Positions 30,127 to 37,193 of a stretch of DNA of 37,416 nt are shown piece after piece. This DNA is from Rubrobacter sp. (GTDB lineage Bacteria > Chloroflexota > Chloroflexia > Thermobaculales > Thermobaculaceae). Made by a program: the position numbers and the translations under genes. Position 1 is the stretch's first letter; every line of letters begins with the position of its first letter. Under the pieces are notes generated by a model, which did not search any database, had not been told where the DNA came from, and saw only the letters and a list, made by a program, of their open reading frames with translations. The stretch lies in NCBI GenBank assembly GCA_016781845.1, contig JADDPP010000403.1, forward strand, positions 1-37,416, written 5' to 3'.

Positions 30127-30906
30127 ATGCAGCTTGAAGGCAGGGTGGCGCTTGTTACCGGGGCGGGGTCGGGGATAGGACGGGCGGCGGCGGTGCTGCT
30201 CGCGAAGGAGGGTGCGAGGATAGCCGCGCTCGACGTTACCGAGGACTCGCTCCAGGACGTGGTCGCGGAGATCAAGCAGGGCGGCGGCGAGGCGATGCCG
30301 CTGGCGGCGGATGTGTCGCAGCCAGACCACATGCAGCAGGCGATACAGCAGGCAGGCGAGCGCTGGGGCCGCATGGATATAGTATTCGCCAACGCGGGCA
30401 TCAACGGCGTGTGGGCGCCGCTGGAAGAGCTTGAGCCGGAGGAGTGGGACCGCACGCTGAGCATCAACCTCAAGGGCACCTTCCTCACCGTGAAGTATGC
30501 CATTCCGTACCTTAAGCGGCAGGGCGGCTCGGTGATCGTCACGTCATCCGTGAACGGCACCCGCATCTTCAGCAACACGGGCGCGACGGCTTACTCGTGC
30601 TCCAAGGGTGGCCAGGTGATCTTCACACAGATGGTAGCTCTGGAGCTGGCCAGGTACGGGATCCGTGTCAACGCCATCTGTCCGGGGGCTATAGAGACGA
30701 ACATCGGACAGCGCACCGAGCAGCGCGACACGGACGAGGTGAAGATCCCGGTGGAGTTCCCCGAGGGTTCTCATCCCCTTGAGGGAAGGGCCGGAACGCC
30801 GGAGCAGGTGGCGCAGGTGGTGTTGTTCCTGGCCTCGGACGCTTCGAGCCACGTTACCGGCACCCCTATCTGGGTAGAGGGCGCGGAGTCGCTGCTGATT
30901 GGGTAG
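30127..30906 (+). CDS. SDR-family oxidoreductase
   Basis: MQLEGRVALVTGAGSGIGRAAAVLLAKEGA, IVFANAGINGVW, AYSCSKGGQVIFTQMVALELARYGIRVNAICPGAIETN; ATG preceded by aggaggaaagagga. Confidence 0.94.
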   Translation: MQLEGRVALVTGAGSGIGRAAAVLLAKEGARIAALDVTEDSLQDVVAEIKQGGGEAMPLAADVSQPDHMQQAIQQAGERWGRMDIVFANAGINGVWAPLEELEPEEWDRTLSINLKGTFLTVKYAIPYLKRQGGSVIVTSSVNGTRIFSNTGATAYSCSKGGQVIFTQMVALELARYGIRVNAICPGAIETNIGQRTEQRDTDEVKIPVEFPEGSHPLEGRAGTPEQVAQVVLFLASDASSHVTGTPIWVEGAESLLIG

Positions 30907-30949
30907 CCCCTGCAGGGTCACCACACAAGAGAGTTGGAGGGGTTGGAGG

Positions 30950-31972
30950 ATGCAGTCGTTGCGTATCGGGTTGATCGGGTGTGGGGGCAAGGGTGCGGGT
31001 CACGCGAGGACCTTGCTCTCACTGCCGGGCGTACAGATCGCCGGCATCGTAGATCCTGTTGAGGCGAGCCACGAGAGGGTGCATCGTGCGCATCCCGTGC
31101 TCGCTGAGGCGCCGGGCTTTGCGACGACGGAGGAGCTCTACGACGCGGTGGAGCTCGACGCGGTGCAGATCATTACCCCACACACCCTGCACTACCCACA
31201 GGTGACGGAGGCGATAGGCCGTGGCCTGCACGTGCTCTGCGAGAAGCCATTAGCAGTGACGTCGGAAGAGGCGCGGGATATTGCCGCAAGGGCGGATGCG
31301 GCGGGAGTGGTGGTGAGCGTGAGCTACCAGCGACGGCTCGACCCGGCGTACATGTACATGCGCAGGGCTATCGAGGCAGGCGAGCTGGGTGAGATACAGA
31401 CGGTGGCCATCCTCAACGGGCAGAGCTGGCGCAGAGCCACGACCGGCAGCTGGCGTCAGGACCCGGCGCTCTCCGGCGGCGGGATGCTGATGGACAGCGG
31501 CAGCCATCACGTCGAGTCGCTTCTCTCGCTCGCCGGACAGCCAGTGGAGTCCGTTACCGCGCTGGTCGAGAACTTCGGCCTACCCGTGGATATCAACAGC
31601 TCTACAACGATTGGCTTTGCCGGTGGAGTGCAGGGCCAGCTAACAATTATCGGCGACCTGCCCGCGACGTGGATCGAGCAGGTGGTGGTGAGTGGCAGCG
31701 AGGGCATCCTGCGCTACGAGACGGAGCCGCATCACCCGTTCAAGACCGGGAGGTTGTGGCAGTACCGCGACGGCGAGATCGTGCAGCCGCTCAGGATGCC
31801 GGGCAACCGCCTCGTGGACCCGGCGTGGCTGGCGGCGATTCGTGGGGAGGGCCCGAATCCTTCGCCGCCGGAGGTCGGCGTGCGGGTCGCGGAGCTGACT
31901 GAGGCCATCTACCAGTCCGCGCGTGAGGGTAGGACAGTGAACCTTGCTCCGGTGGCTGGCGCGGCGAGGTGA
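30950..31972 (+). CDS. Gfo/Idh/MocA family oxidoreductase
   Basis: LRIGLIGCGGKGAGHARTL, AVQIITPHTLHYPQVTEAIGRGLHVLCEKPLAVT, GGGMLMDSGSHHVESLLSL; ATG preceded by tggagg. Confidence 0.93.
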   Translation: MQSLRIGLIGCGGKGAGHARTLLSLPGVQIAGIVDPVEASHERVHRAHPVLAEAPGFATTEELYDAVELDAVQIITPHTLHYPQVTEAIGRGLHVLCEKPLAVTSEEARDIAARADAAGVVVSVSYQRRLDPAYMYMRRAIEAGELGEIQTVAILNGQSWRRATTGSWRQDPALSGGGMLMDSGSHHVESLLSLAGQPVESVTALVENFGLPVDINSSTTIGFAGGVQGQLTIIGDLPATWIEQVVVSGSEGILRYETEPHHPFKTGRLWQYRDGEIVQPLRMPGNRLVDPAWLAAIRGEGPNPSPPEVGVRVAELTEAIYQSAREGRTVNLAPVAGAAR

Positions 31973-32154: not shown

Positions 32155-33003
32155 CTACAGCTGCTCGCCATCCACCTCCACATACCGTCCCGCGCTCGAA
32201 TGCACCCAGCCGTAGCCGCACTCTCGACCGAGGTGGTACCAGCGCGAGGAGCCGGCCACGGACTGCCCGCCCTCCGTGTAGCCGTCCGTGACGAGCACCG
32301 CCGGGCCGAGCGGCCTCAGAACCCGCCCGGCACGCGACGGCGCGGCGCGAGCGATTACACCGGGTGCGACGACTTCCAGCGTGCCCGGTCGCCACACTAC
32401 GCCGGGCCGCGTTGCCTGCGCATTCTGTCCTGCGTAGTACCGCCGAATACCCAGCACGACCGCGTCCGCGACCACCTGAGGGCTGTCACTCAGCAGGCGA
32501 GCCTGACGTGCGTGTGTGTGGGAACCGCACTCGACGAGCGCGGAGATGAACGGCTGGCTTCCGTAGATCTCTTCTCGCGGACCCTTCCGACTCGCGGAAC
32601 GCGGCCCTACACGCACGTCTCGGGTCCGCATCGCGAGCCCGACCTCCCGCGCCACTGTCGAGGCGAGAGAGTGTGACGCACGGCGTCCAGGACCGTGCGC
32701 AGAGCAGATACCTGTCACGCTCGGCTGCTTGCCCCCGTGCGAGCACAGTTCGAGGACTATCTTCTGCGCGTGCGCCCCAGGGCAGGCACGCAGCCACATC
32801 TCCGCTTGCTGGTACTGCTTTCGCAGCATCGGCAGGTCGCCCCCTTGCTCGAAGCCGGGCCAGAACATCTCCACCTCGTAGCCCCGCAGCTCGAGCAGCG
32901 ACTCGCGCACCAGCCTGGCGATGACTCGCATCCCCTCCCCCTCCACGTACCCGTCGAGCCCCCTGTCCCGCCGAACGCTCGGCAGCAGCACTACGTACCT
33001 CAA
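32155..33003 (-). CDS. N-acetylmuramoyl-L-alanine amidase (Amidase_3-like) with C-terminal SH3-like tail, probable endolysin
   Basis: RYVVLLPSVRRDRGLDGYVEGEGMRVIARLVRESL...KIVLELCSHGG...GLAMRTRDVRV...PFISALVECGSHTHARQARLL. C-terminal VLRPLGPAVLVTDGYTEGGQSVAGSSRWYHLG...GWVHSSAGRYVEV. TTG start after AAAGGAGAACGGG. Confidence 0.72.
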   Translation of the reverse strand: MRYVVLLPSVRRDRGLDGYVEGEGMRVIARLVRESLLELRGYEVEMFWPGFEQGGDLPMLRKQYQQAEMWLRACPGAHAQKIVLELCSHGGKQPSVTGICSAHGPGRRASHSLASTVAREVGLAMRTRDVRVGPRSASRKGPREEIYGSQPFISALVECGSHTHARQARLLSDSPQVVADAVVLGIRRYYAGQNAQATRPGVVWRPGTLEVVAPGVIARAAPSRAGRVLRPLGPAVLVTDGYTEGGQSVAGSSRWYHLGRECGYGWVHSSAGRYVEVDGEQL

Positions 33004-33056
33004 CCCGTTCTCCTTTCAGTTACGAGCAACGAGTGGTGAGGATGGCTCGTCACTCA

Positions 33057-33662
33057 TTACCCCCTTGCCTCCGCCAGCAGCAGCCCCCCGCTGCACTGGA
33101 CGCTGACGCCGCTCGCCACCACTCTTAGTTGCAGGCGTAGACGCCACGTACCGGCGCCCGCGACAGGCACCCGCGCGGTGTGCATACAGACCTGGTGCAG
33201 ATTTGCGAGCGCGCTGCCCCAGCTCACAACCGGCCCCACGCCCGCGCCGTCCACGCTCACCCGCATCTGCCAGACGGCGTCCGCGGACTGCGAGCTGCCG
33301 CGCAACCCCAGCCACCCGCTTGCCCACAGCGCGCAAGGGTCAGCCGTGCGCACGTCCGCGGTGAGCGCGTCCTGCCACGTCACCCCATCCGTGTAGGCAA
33401 AGCTCTGGGGCGGGGAGGAAGTGGAAGCGGAGCCTGGTAGACCTGCGTGGTCCGGGTCGTGCCCGAGCGTCGCCACGACGGTTCGCTCTCCACCCGGCGT
33501 GAGCGCGACCACGCACTCCACGTCAGGCGCGAGCATCTGCCCTTGCACCCCGTCTCCCAGGCGTGCGACCACCGCCGTACCCTCGGAGCCATCAAGCTCC
33601 ACGAGCGCCGTCCGCGCCTCCAGGTCCGCCGAGCGCATCCGCGCCAAGCTCGTCTCGCGCAT
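33057..33662 (-). CDS. Phage-tail-cassette protein, possible N-terminal OB-fold and beta-rich C-terminal region
   Basis: ATG after GCAGGAGAAGTT. ARTALVELDGSEGTAVVARLGDGVQGQMLAPDVECVVALTPGGERTVVATL is OB-like by eye. Same-strand position between the tail protein and the amidase. Confidence 0.45.
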   Translation of the reverse strand: MRETSLARMRSADLEARTALVELDGSEGTAVVARLGDGVQGQMLAPDVECVVALTPGGERTVVATLGHDPDHAGLPGSASTSSPPQSFAYTDGVTWQDALTADVRTADPCALWASGWLGLRGSSQSADAVWQMRVSVDGAGVGPVVSWGSALANLHQVCMHTARVPVAGAGTWRLRLQLRVVASGVSVQCSGGLLLAEARG

Positions 33663-33718
33663 AACTTCTCCTGCTAACAAGTGATTGGTAACACACTCCA
33701 CTCATCGCTTACGACTCG

Positions 33719-35731
33719 CTACTCCTCACCGAATGTGAGATCCTGCAGCCATTCGCCCTTACCGGGGTCATAGCGCTCCTCGAAGCTGGTCACGGTGCGG
33801 GTCTCCGGCAGGGCCGTCTCGTAGGGGTATATATCCACGCGGTCCCAGAGCTCGAGACCGAGGTTGGGCATGCTGCGCAACCTCCCCGTCCGCGCCCTCC
33901 TGCGCGCCGCGGCCAGCATCGCCTCAGCAAGCGCGGTCGCCTCCGCGTTGTCCGCGAGAGAGGGGTCGAGCAGCTTCACGAGGCGCTGCCCGAGCCGTGT
34001 AACCGCCTCCGGGTCCATCGCTTCACCGTAGACAGTCGTTCCCCGCTTGCCGTACGCCTGCACGTGGTTCGGCTCCAGCGGCCCGCTCGCCAACTCCCAG
34101 CTCAGCAGCGGCTGCCCGCCGTACCCATACGAGTACGCGGGGGCCGCCGTGTCACTCGGATCCACAAGTACGAGCCCATCACCACTGGGACGCAGGCGCT
34201 CCGGTACCTGGTCGAGCAGCCTGCGCGCGGCAGCGAGCGTGCTCTCCCCCGGCGCGACCGCGAACGAAGGCTTGTGGGTGGCCTGCGCCGATGGGCTGGC
34301 TGCAAGCGAGAGCTTCAGCCCCGCGAGCGCGGTAAGCTCCGCGAGCATCACGTGTATCGAGTGCGTGCGGTCCCACGCGAACGACCGGTTCGCTCGATAC
34401 GCCGACAGCGCCAGGAGCGCGTCGCGGCACTCCACGAGCAGCATTCTTTCCCCGGCCTCCTCCACGCGCCGGACCTCCGCTACCTCCTGTTCCGGCAACC
34501 CTGCCGAGAGCGGACCGCCAGGGGTGTGGAGCCCTCGGGAGAGGCGGATACCCGCTCCGGGCCTCAGAAGCTCCAGCTCCGCGGACCGGCTAGCACCGTC
34601 CGCGTCGGAGAGCACGAGCCGTAGCGCGCCGGGCACTTGCAGGCAGTACGACCGCAGCCTGCCGGAGAGCTCCAGCGTTCGCGCCGCTGTGTCAACCGCC
34701 CAGCCAGACCTCTCGCCGGCAAGCAGGGCCTCAGTGGCGGAGGGACCCGAAATCAGGAGCGCCGGGACGCTCACCACGCCCACGGGCGCCGGAGCTGTCC
34801 ACTCGCTGATACCGTAGCCCGAGAAGACGCGGTGCGCTATCTCCAGCCGGTCCGGTCCTCCGGGTCGCCCCGCCCAGTACGAACAGTGCTCCGTGCCCGT
34901 GATGGAGGCGAGCGAGGGCTGGTAGAAGCGGTATCCGGTGTCGGAGTCGGCCCACTGCAGCGTACCCAGCCCCAGCCAGTTGCCGGCGGCGGTACTGTAG
35001 CCGTCACCCATCAGCGTGAGGAACACGCCCCAGGGGTACTCCCCCTGCCCCGACTGGCCGGTGATAGCCACGTGCCAGTCGCCGTTGTGTACGCAAGTCA
35101 GCCCCTCGACGTTCCGGAACTTCGGCACGGTCGCGCTCGTAATTGCGCCGTACGTGCCGGAGCTGGTAAGCATCCGGTATCGCAGCTCCACCGTGCTCGC
35201 CCCGCTCTGCACCGCTCCCGCCGCCCACAGAAAGAATCGGTCGTTCGTGCCGGCACGCGCCGCAAGAGCCACCGCCCGCACCGGCGCGGCAGTGTCCGCT
35301 GCCACGAGGTTCTCTCCCGTCCAGGACACGCCGTTGTTCGTGCTCACACGCCGCACCACGGTGACGCCATCTGGCCTGACGTACCCCATGTTCACGGTCG
35401 TCGAGCCGGAAACCATACTCGGAGGAATAGATGAGCTCGCGACGCCCGCGCCGAGCAGCGACCACGCCGCGCCCCACCCGGCTGGACTCACCGGGTCGGT
35501 GATGCGCTGCGCGAGAAGGTCGCCGTTCGCCAGGATACGCATCCGGCACAGGCTTCCATCGGCGGCGATGCACGCGGCGAACTGCGCCGCGTCGCCGGCC
35601 TCGCTGTGGATGGGAGTGGCCGCGAGCGGGTGCGCGCCCCACCTGCGCGACGTCGCGGTGAGCCACTGGATGTACGGCCGCTGCGTCCGCTCCTTCTGCG
35701 CCGCGAGCAATTGCTCCGTAAGCGCCTTCAC
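33719..35731 (-). CDS. 670-aa tail-associated protein: N-terminal beta-propeller-like region plus C-terminal tail-hub-like region
   Basis: GTG start after AGAAAGGAGGCCCG. Asp-box-like STNNGVSW. C-terminal LLVECRDALLALSAYR..., ESTLAAARRLLDQVPERLRPSGDGLVLVDPSD, TALPETRTVTSFEERYDPGKGEWLQDLTFGEE, resembling tail hub/baseplate proteins. Confidence 0.6.
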   Translation of the reverse strand: MKALTEQLLAAQKERTQRPYIQWLTATSRRWGAHPLAATPIHSEAGDAAQFAACIAADGSLCRMRILANGDLLAQRITDPVSPAGWGAAWSLLGAGVASSSIPPSMVSGSTTVNMGYVRPDGVTVVRRVSTNNGVSWTGENLVAADTAAPVRAVALAARAGTNDRFFLWAAGAVQSGASTVELRYRMLTSSGTYGAITSATVPKFRNVEGLTCVHNGDWHVAITGQSGQGEYPWGVFLTLMGDGYSTAAGNWLGLGTLQWADSDTGYRFYQPSLASITGTEHCSYWAGRPGGPDRLEIAHRVFSGYGISEWTAPAPVGVVSVPALLISGPSATEALLAGERSGWAVDTAARTLELSGRLRSYCLQVPGALRLVLSDADGASRSAELELLRPGAGIRLSRGLHTPGGPLSAGLPEQEVAEVRRVEEAGERMLLVECRDALLALSAYRANRSFAWDRTHSIHVMLAELTALAGLKLSLAASPSAQATHKPSFAVAPGESTLAAARRLLDQVPERLRPSGDGLVLVDPSDTAAPAYSYGYGGQPLLSWELASGPLEPNHVQAYGKRGTTVYGEAMDPEAVTRLGQRLVKLLDPSLADNAEATALAEAMLAAARRRARTGRLRSMPNLGLELWDRVDIYPYETALPETRTVTSFEERYDPGKGEWLQDLTFGEE

Positions 35732-35751
35732 CGGGCCTCCTTTCTATGTCG

Positions 35752-36174
35752 TTACAGGGCTTCGATGAGGGTGAGTTCGGCGGTGGTTGTGGGCTCGGGT
35801 GGGTAAGTGTGCTCCTCGAGGGCGAGGAAGCGTACCTGGTAGCTCTCGCCCTCGGGGGTGACGAGCGTGATGAGTGCCCCTTCGAGGGAGTAGAACGAGC
35901 GCAGCTGCGCGACCGTGCCTCCAGCGGCCGCTGCCTGCCGAAGGCTTACGCCGTGCGGCTCGAAGCGCGCCACCAGCTTCCACTCCCGCGGGCCGCCTCC
36001 GAAGTCCGCGTACGCGGTGCCGCCTGTGGCAAGCGTCATAGGGCGCCCTGCCCGCGCCCTTCGCGTGGGGAATGCCTTGCGCCCCCGCTCCAGTGCCAGG
36101 AAGAACCCCACAGCCGCGCCGCCGTTCACAGACGAATGCGCGAGGGTGAAGTCGCAGTCTACGCCGGGCGTCAA
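35752..36174 (-). CDS. Small phage-tail-cassette protein
   Basis: TTG start after GCGAAAGGAGGTAAC. 140 aa, SFYSLEGALITLVTPEGESYQVRFLALEEHTYPPEPTTTAELTLIEAL; position directly before the 670-aa tail protein. Confidence 0.45.
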   Translation of the reverse strand: MTPGVDCDFTLAHSSVNGGAAVGFFLALERGRKAFPTRRARAGRPMTLATGGTAYADFGGGPREWKLVARFEPHGVSLRQAAAAGGTVAQLRSFYSLEGALITLVTPEGESYQVRFLALEEHTYPPEPTTTAELTLIEAL

Positions 36175-36216
36175 GTTACCTCCTTTCGCAATGATGAGTG
36201 CTGAGAGCCCGTAGGG

Positions 36217-36774
36217 TCACCCATTACTCATCACTGTCCGCCTGAGCGGGCGGGGCTTCGTGGCGAGCCAGGTTTCGTATCGCTGCTCGTACGCCTGGGC
36301 GACGGTGCCGGATGTGGCGGCCAGGGCGGAGCCTGTCTTCTCTCGCTGCTTCGAGAGCCACTCCATCGCGTACGATGCGGCGAGCCATATCACAGGAGGG
36401 TCCTCACCCGCGCGCAGCCCCACGTCCCCGGTCGCTGGCGGACGCCCCCGAGCCGCCGCGTAGCGCACCAACAGCTCGGAGGGGGAGGGGGACTGAAGCC
36501 GGAGCTTTCCCGCCCAGACGGTGTACTCGGCTGGATGCAGGGGTGTGTCATCGAGCAGCGCTTCGTGTAGCCGCAGCCGGTCCGCGGGCAGCGCATACGC
36601 GCCATCAGCCGCGGTGGAGAGCTGCGCTTCGCGCTGCAGCGGCGAGTCCGCCCCCAGCCGCTCGACCGCGTCCCCGAGGAACCCATCGAGCAACTCATCG
36701 CTCCACACGTACGCCCCGACGGTCTGGTCCCCAAGCTCAGCGCGCAGCCGCGCGCGCAGTTCGGCAAGCGTCAT
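36217..36774 (-). CDS. Phage neck/adaptor-like protein
   Basis: MTLAELRARLRAELGDQTVGAYVWSDELLDGFLGDAVERLGADSPLQREAQLSTAADGAYALPADRLRLHEALLDD resembles head-tail connector/adaptor proteins. ATG 36774 preceded by GAAGGAGAACCG. Confidence 0.5.
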   Translation of the reverse strand: MTLAELRARLRAELGDQTVGAYVWSDELLDGFLGDAVERLGADSPLQREAQLSTAADGAYALPADRLRLHEALLDDTPLHPAEYTVWAGKLRLQSPSPSELLVRYAAARGRPPATGDVGLRAGEDPPVIWLAASYAMEWLSKQREKTGSALAATSGTVAQAYEQRYETWLATKPRPLRRTVMSNG

Positions 36775-36821: not shown

Positions 36822-36843
36822 GAGGTCCGCCGAAGCGGACCTC
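36822..36843 (-). terminator. Hairpin terminator candidate: GAGGTCCGC-TTCG-GCGGACCTC (minus strand)
   Basis: Perfect 9-bp stem closing a cUUCGg tetraloop when transcribed from the minus strand, 33 bp after the GYD-gene stop; only a weak T-rich tail (TAACTTTA). Confidence 0.7.
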
Positions 36844-36875: not shown

Positions 36876-37193
36876 CTATTCCGCTGTGGACTCCCCCGTC
36901 GGCGGCGTTTGCTGAAGGCTGGCGGTGAACTGATCAACAGGAATCGCGGGCATCGTGAGGAACTGCACGGTGCCGCGTGCGCCGAGAGCCACGGATACCC
37001 GCGCGATGGTCTCATTGTCTGGTGCCTCGACCACGTTCACGAAGTCGTACGGTCCCAGTACCGCGTACTGCTGGACCACGCGCGCACCGAGTTGCTCCAC
37101 CTCCTTGTTCACCTGCGCGATGCGCTCCGGCCGCTCAGAGATCGTCTCGCGCCCGTCGTCGGTCAGCGTACTGAGCATGATGTACGTCGCCAT
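36876..37193 (-). CDS. GYD-domain protein
   Basis: MATYIMLSTLTDDGRETISERPERIAQVNKEVEQLGARVVQQYAVLGPYDFVNVVEAPDNETIARVSVALGARGTVQFLTMPAIPVDQF; ATG preceded by CAGGAGGGAGAGACA. Confidence 0.88.
   Translation of the reverse strand: MATYIMLSTLTDDGRETISERPERIAQVNKEVEQLGARVVQQYAVLGPYDFVNVVEAPDNETIARVSVALGARGTVQFLTMPAIPVDQFTASLQQTPPTGESTAE

Follow-up and report, generated by a model that had tools for sequence, protein, structure and literature searches.

A phage-derived tail-tip and lysis cassette from Chloroflexota as part of a candidate gene-transfer-agent-like gene set

The window, by which we mean the whole stretch of 37,416 nucleotides analysed here, is one entire contig that carries five co-directional, full-length open reading frames (ORFs) running leftward at 32155-36774, the adaptor gene lying 0.6 kb from the contig end. 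The genes and signals of this cassette and its flanks are:

30899 to 31972, plus strand: Gfo/Idh oxidoreductase gene, left flank, outside the set (PF01408, 1.8e-22)
32155 to 33003, minus strand: probable amidase-type lysin (weak Amidase_3 match, E 0.16)
33057 to 33662, minus strand: p214, 201 aa from its likely start (the ORF reaches to 33701)
33719 to 35731, minus strand: p670, predicted tail hub with N-terminal beta-propeller (AlphaFold model and fold matches)
35752 to 36174, minus strand: p140, small tail protein encoded between the adaptor and hub genes (position kept in the related genome G007)
36217 to 36774, minus strand: head-tail adaptor, 185 aa (Pfam SU10_adaptor 3.7e-8, phrog_399 2.3e-6)
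36822 to 36843, minus strand: terminator-like hairpin after the GYD gene (9-bp perfect inverted repeat, from sequence)
36876 to 37193, minus strand: GYD-domain gene, right flank, outside the set (PF08734, 1.2e-31)

On the minus strand, Shine-Dalgarno sequences precede the ATG of the adaptor at 36774 (AAGGAG), the TTG of p140 at 36174 (AAGGAGGT), the GTG of p670 at 35731 (AAAGGAGG), an internal ATG of p214 at 33662 (AGGAG) and the TTG of the lysin at 33003 (AAAGGAG). Given the AGGAG upstream of position 33662, p214 likely starts there, in agreement with the start of its relative in G003, a genome of the same family. The hairpin, GAGGTCCGC-CGAA-GCGGACCTC, has a perfect 9-bp stem and lies between the GYD and adaptor genes, and the Gfo/Idh gene is convergent with the cassette. 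The original prediction had described five intact leftward ORFs with ribosome-binding sites between these two flanking genes, with the GYD gene behind a hairpin and no phage head genes in the window; the Pfam matches and the inverted repeat bear out the flanks, all five ORFs are indeed full length, and no head gene was recognised in the 37,416 nucleotides.

The adaptor-like reading of the 185-aa protein holds, as both this protein and its relative in G007 match the SU10-type adaptor family (PF24175). Relatives of the adaptor adjoin the capsid gene in G003 and G007; a PDB sequence search with the adaptor gave no match. The 670-aa protein, p670, which has no Pfam family, had been read as a propeller or tail hub, and its predicted structure supports this reading: an alignment of 26 relatives yielded a model of good quality (pLDDT 87, pTM 0.81), in which an N-terminal beta-propeller is joined to a hub of the gp27/Mu-gp44 type. 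In structure comparison the C-terminal half matches Mu gp44 (1wru, 6.2e-14, TM 0.69 by target) as well as T4 gp27 and VgrG, while the N-terminal half has weaker matches to sialidases and PLL-type lectins. Thus, p670 shares the fold of these baseplate hubs in its C-terminal half and differs from them in the propeller placed ahead of the hub, and no contractile sheath gene was recognised with it. An SU10-like podovirus nozzle system was set aside as a candidate because the tail protein of this set, p670, is a predicted gp27-type hub.

The remaining three proteins are less well defined. p140, which lies between adaptor and hub in G007 as well and has relatives in four members of the phylum with large genomes, gave a poor AlphaFold model (pLDDT 49.5) and at best a chance-level match in a PDB sequence search; our guess is that it is a distal-tail-like protein. 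p214 has no match in Pfam, PHROG or PDB, and among 61 genomes its one relative is in G003, directly after the adaptor (35% identity); that it begins with an OB-type spike domain is a guess from a sequence alignment. The amidase reading of the last gene stands in part, in that an Amidase_3 match was obtained that misses the curated cut-off, and no PHROG match fell below 0.1.

We consider the phage origin of the cassette confirmed, since it encodes an SU10-type adaptor and a protein with the predicted structure of a gp27-type hub, and since relatives of its genes lie beside capsid, portal and terminase genes; the phage-tail-like reading of the original prediction agrees with all three. The conservation of the five-gene order elsewhere, also raised there, is seen in part: four of the five genes have homologues in like order or in a cluster in other genomes, which argues that the cassette is more than a chance assembly of ORFs.

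A recurrent gene set surrounds the relatives of p670 and those of the G007 capsid. It encodes an HTH protein (a candidate small terminase), a large terminase (phrog_38), an SPP1-type portal (PF05133), a scaffold-like protein, an HK97 capsid (PF05065), small proteins, the adaptor and the hub; the G301 cluster also encodes an Amidase_2 protein, which has a partial relative in G078. The set is often scattered over separate loci. In G003, presumably the genome of Thermobaculum terrenum, its parts are spread over both chromosomes (2,026,947 and 1,074,634 bases); in G225 the terminase gene is 4.5 kb from the rest, with other genes between; and in G044 the portal gene is 7.7 kb from the capsid gene. 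A set spread over several loci in this way could not enter a particle as a single piece of DNA. Furthermore, ordinary chromosomal genes are found beside and inside the clusters of relatives. In G408, for example, a phosphotriesterase-family gene (PF02126, 1e-101; L055, 7134-8102) lies between portal and scaffold.

Relatives of p670 were detected in 71 of 399 genomes of the phylum and the capsid in 46, with a single match in 43 of the 46; G274 has one capsid gene in pieces, and G120 and G147 have two each, some of them divergent. Among 61 closer relatives the capsid was found in 25, the terminase in 27 and the portal in 28, although a few weak matches to the latter two may belong to other phages. 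Some families have capsid, portal and terminase with no p670 match, and in some of them a long insert, which we read as a propeller, divides a p140-like sequence. Four loci from larger genomes (L062, L063, L064 and L068) have the hub and p140, the adaptor in three of the four and the terminase in two; no capsid of this family was found in them, and a different capsid may be in use.

In the genome of the window itself (3.58 Mb in 502 contigs, 96.7% complete), profiles for capsid, portal and terminase had no match. The original prediction offered three options, the first being the distal end of a prophage whose head genes lie past the right edge. This is unlikely, because the gene upstream is the GYD gene with its own hairpin and because head-gene profiles match nowhere in the assembly; nor does the window resemble an ordinary prophage, in which genes for the head, for packaging and for integration form a single block, as its phage-type genes are only those of tail and lysis. 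In the window's family (f1) the set seems to be breaking up: it is scattered in G003, the capsid gene is interrupted in G002, G001 retains a piece of the terminase, and a profile search of G004, G005 and G006 gave no capsid, portal or terminase match. From the lack of head genes and this break-up we infer two possible states of the cassette: either it is the tail half of a split set, with the head half unassembled, or it is a recent remainder. The head genes of this genome would then sit in gaps of the assembly or have been lost already, and its set may be incomplete or decaying.

If they are lost, the cassette could be a relic, that is, the family once had the whole set, the head half was lost recently, and the tail half is now functionless and intact only because the loss is young. 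The missing head genes in a nearly complete assembly and the different stages of loss within the family speak for this reading. However, none of the five ORFs is truncated and each has a good ribosome-binding site, p670 retains the conserved residues of the hub family, and an assembly in so many contigs, one of them ending so close to the adaptor, leaves room for unassembled head genes. On balance, we regard a relic as unlikely, though well within the range of serious alternatives. A further option of the original prediction, a tail-tip and lysin device kept on its own, for example as a headless particle or a lysin used against competitors, appears quite improbable to us. This genome does yield tail-tip and lysis genes alone, with hub and lysin intact, but the tube, sheath or tape measure that would make a tailocin is missing, the copies in relatives adjoin capsid and portal genes, and the tail half was not seen by itself in any other genome.

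To follow the inheritance of the set, trees of its proteins were compared with a host tree built from rpoB alone, leaving out G019, the rpoB sequence of which is wrong or frame-broken. The capsid tree shares 19 of 40 splits with the rpoB tree (shuffled maximum 3; Mantel 0.56), the portal tree 16 of 24 (Mantel 0.77), the terminase tree 10 of 16 (Mantel 0.63) and the hub tree 10 of 18 (Mantel 0.74), all four being far above shuffled controls in their congruence. The capsid and portal trees agree strongly with each other (Mantel 0.89). The capsid tree clusters genomes by family and larger group, and in the hub tree the window's p670 is sister to that of G003, followed by G007. Only about half of the splits are common, and with one host marker; this counts against the explanation that we favour below, as does the absence of the capsid from most of the 399 genomes. 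The lack of head genes in the window's genome and the interrupted capsid gene of G002 also speak against it. A further point against it is a likely horizontal transfer of the whole locus: in G341 (L178, family f32) capsid and hub both group with family f84.

The set is under purifying selection in relatives. Since the window's species has no close relative in the sample, all dN/dS values are for genes of relatives: mostly 0.04-0.17 for the capsid, with one pair at 0.34; 0.05-0.19 for the portal; and 0.22-0.62 for the hub. Values for the hub above those for capsid and portal are as expected for a protein that meets a variable surface.

Among the matches listed, inspected by eye for 40 genomes, the tyrosine integrase closest to a capsid gene is about 24 kb away, in G403, and none falls inside 20 kb. 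The capsid is at most 40% identical to its closest match in 50,697 phage records, as compared with 44–64% within the phylum. The HK97 capsids of Paenibacillus phage Unity, Gordonia phage Ewald and Streptomyces phage Rowa are 39–40% identical over the full length; unlike the set, all three are complete phages, and their annotations place tape-measure or tail-tube genes close to the capsid gene. Portal and terminase match other phages at 24–32%, the closest terminase being that of Bacillus phage BboS-125 (32%), whereas p670 and the adaptor have no match in the same records. One genome scan with p670 gave no match, nor did a PDB sequence search with the capsid.

These results bear on two further readings. 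Every part of the set is of phage type, so that it might belong to a family of temperate phages, widespread in this phylum and diversifying along with its hosts, that carries integration genes of an unrecognised kind and was never domesticated; the likely whole-locus transfer involving G341 and the double capsids of G147 and G120 would fit. Yet most genomes have one copy, the trees follow the hosts, parts are split between chromosomes and, among the matches listed, tyrosine integrases are missing from the capsid neighbourhood, and we judge this reading improbable. An ordinary remnant of a recently acquired prophage would account for a partial set of phage-type genes, and the capsid family of the relatives is common to known phages, with up to 40% identity. 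Against it stand the host-like trees of capsid, portal, terminase and hub, the lack of p670 and adaptor matches in the phage records, and a base composition that does not change sharply at the cassette; such a remnant seems to us very improbable.

Gene transfer agents are virus-like particles used by bacteria to exchange DNA. Only in a handful of lineages have they been proven, and each of the three groups defined genetically is regarded as a separate domestication (PMC9662315). Six features define them: proteins derived from tailed phages; full endogenisation, often at several loci; mostly vertical inheritance with trees congruent to those of the hosts; packaging of mostly random host DNA; a head too small for their own genes to be fully packaged; and delivery of the packaged DNA to other cells (PMC9662315). 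Three of the six were tested and found at the level of the set: tailed-phage proteins (capsid, portal, terminase, adaptor and hub), endogenisation at often scattered loci, and mostly vertical inheritance of capsid, portal, terminase and hub, as judged against rpoB only. We therefore call the set a candidate and not a proven agent. Of the three options in the original prediction, a gene-transfer-agent-like locus is the best supported, through the evidence of other genomes alone.

In our view, it is reasonably probable that the five genes supply tail tip and lysis within a phage-derived, vertically inherited set that became a fixed chromosomal property early in the Chloroflexota and most likely encodes a gene-transfer-agent-like particle. 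This set-wide reading is carried by gene content, recurrent clustering, mostly single copies, tree congruence, purifying selection in relatives, the hub-plus-propeller structure and capsid neighbourhoods in which no tyrosine integrase is listed. By analogy with known agents, a full set (terminase, portal, scaffold-like protein, HK97 capsid, adaptor, one or two small proteins, propeller-hub and lysin) would work as follows. Terminase and portal would load the capsid with host DNA; the adaptor would close the head and link it to a very short tail, formed by the hub, the propeller of which may bind a sugar or glycan on the cell surface; and the lysin would free particles from the producer or open the wall of the recipient. 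Delivery would then proceed through a tail with neither tube nor tape measure, although such genes could sit at other loci. That much of the phylum has an ancient, independently domesticated agent of this kind, with a minimal tail of portal, adaptor, small tip protein and propeller-hub, and still moving host DNA, is a possibility to which we give somewhat less than an even chance.

Like RcGTA, BaGTA and the Brachyspira agent (PMC9662315), the set comprises phage-derived head and tail genes that are fixed in the chromosome, often at several loci, pass down with the host and evolve under purifying selection. It differs from them in belonging to another phylum, in having a terminase and capsid that point to other phage relatives and in lacking a recognised tube or tape-measure gene. 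The titles and opening parts of abstracts surveyed in the open-access literature contain no earlier report of such a set in Chloroflexota, and the set is probably a new gene-transfer-agent-like lineage. If this is true, it would represent another independent domestication, phylum-wide and possibly very old, and would give these bacteria, which are hard to culture, a way to exchange genes. Particles with a tail built from nothing but hub and adaptor would also be unusual in design. As the capsid is conserved across families, the set can be tested in any cultured carrier.

Several members of the set show local variations. In G002 (C80; L051, 5503-12948) an insert of about 7.4 kb splits the capsid gene. 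It carries a gene for a large serine recombinase (phrog_95, 3e-84) together with an HK97 capsid gene unrelated to the first (phrog_10, 9e-60); apparently, the domesticated capsid gene serves a small phage-like element as its landing site. The p140-like sequence of family f7 contains an insertion of about 460 residues (L181, 5240-6988; L054, 4431-6179); the insert is perhaps a beta-propeller, as if receptor binding had shifted from the hub to the p140-like protein. The hub gene of G003 has as a neighbour, in a region adjoining L006, a gene of opposite orientation without a PHROG match (L007, 19084-19930, minus strand) that may encode a C39-type peptidase with an SH3-like end, possibly the lysin of this genome. 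Finally, one group has between adaptor and hub a conserved protein of 82–92 aa with a hydrophobic stretch (L059, 9491-9739; L060, 9724-10002), which we guess to be holin-like.
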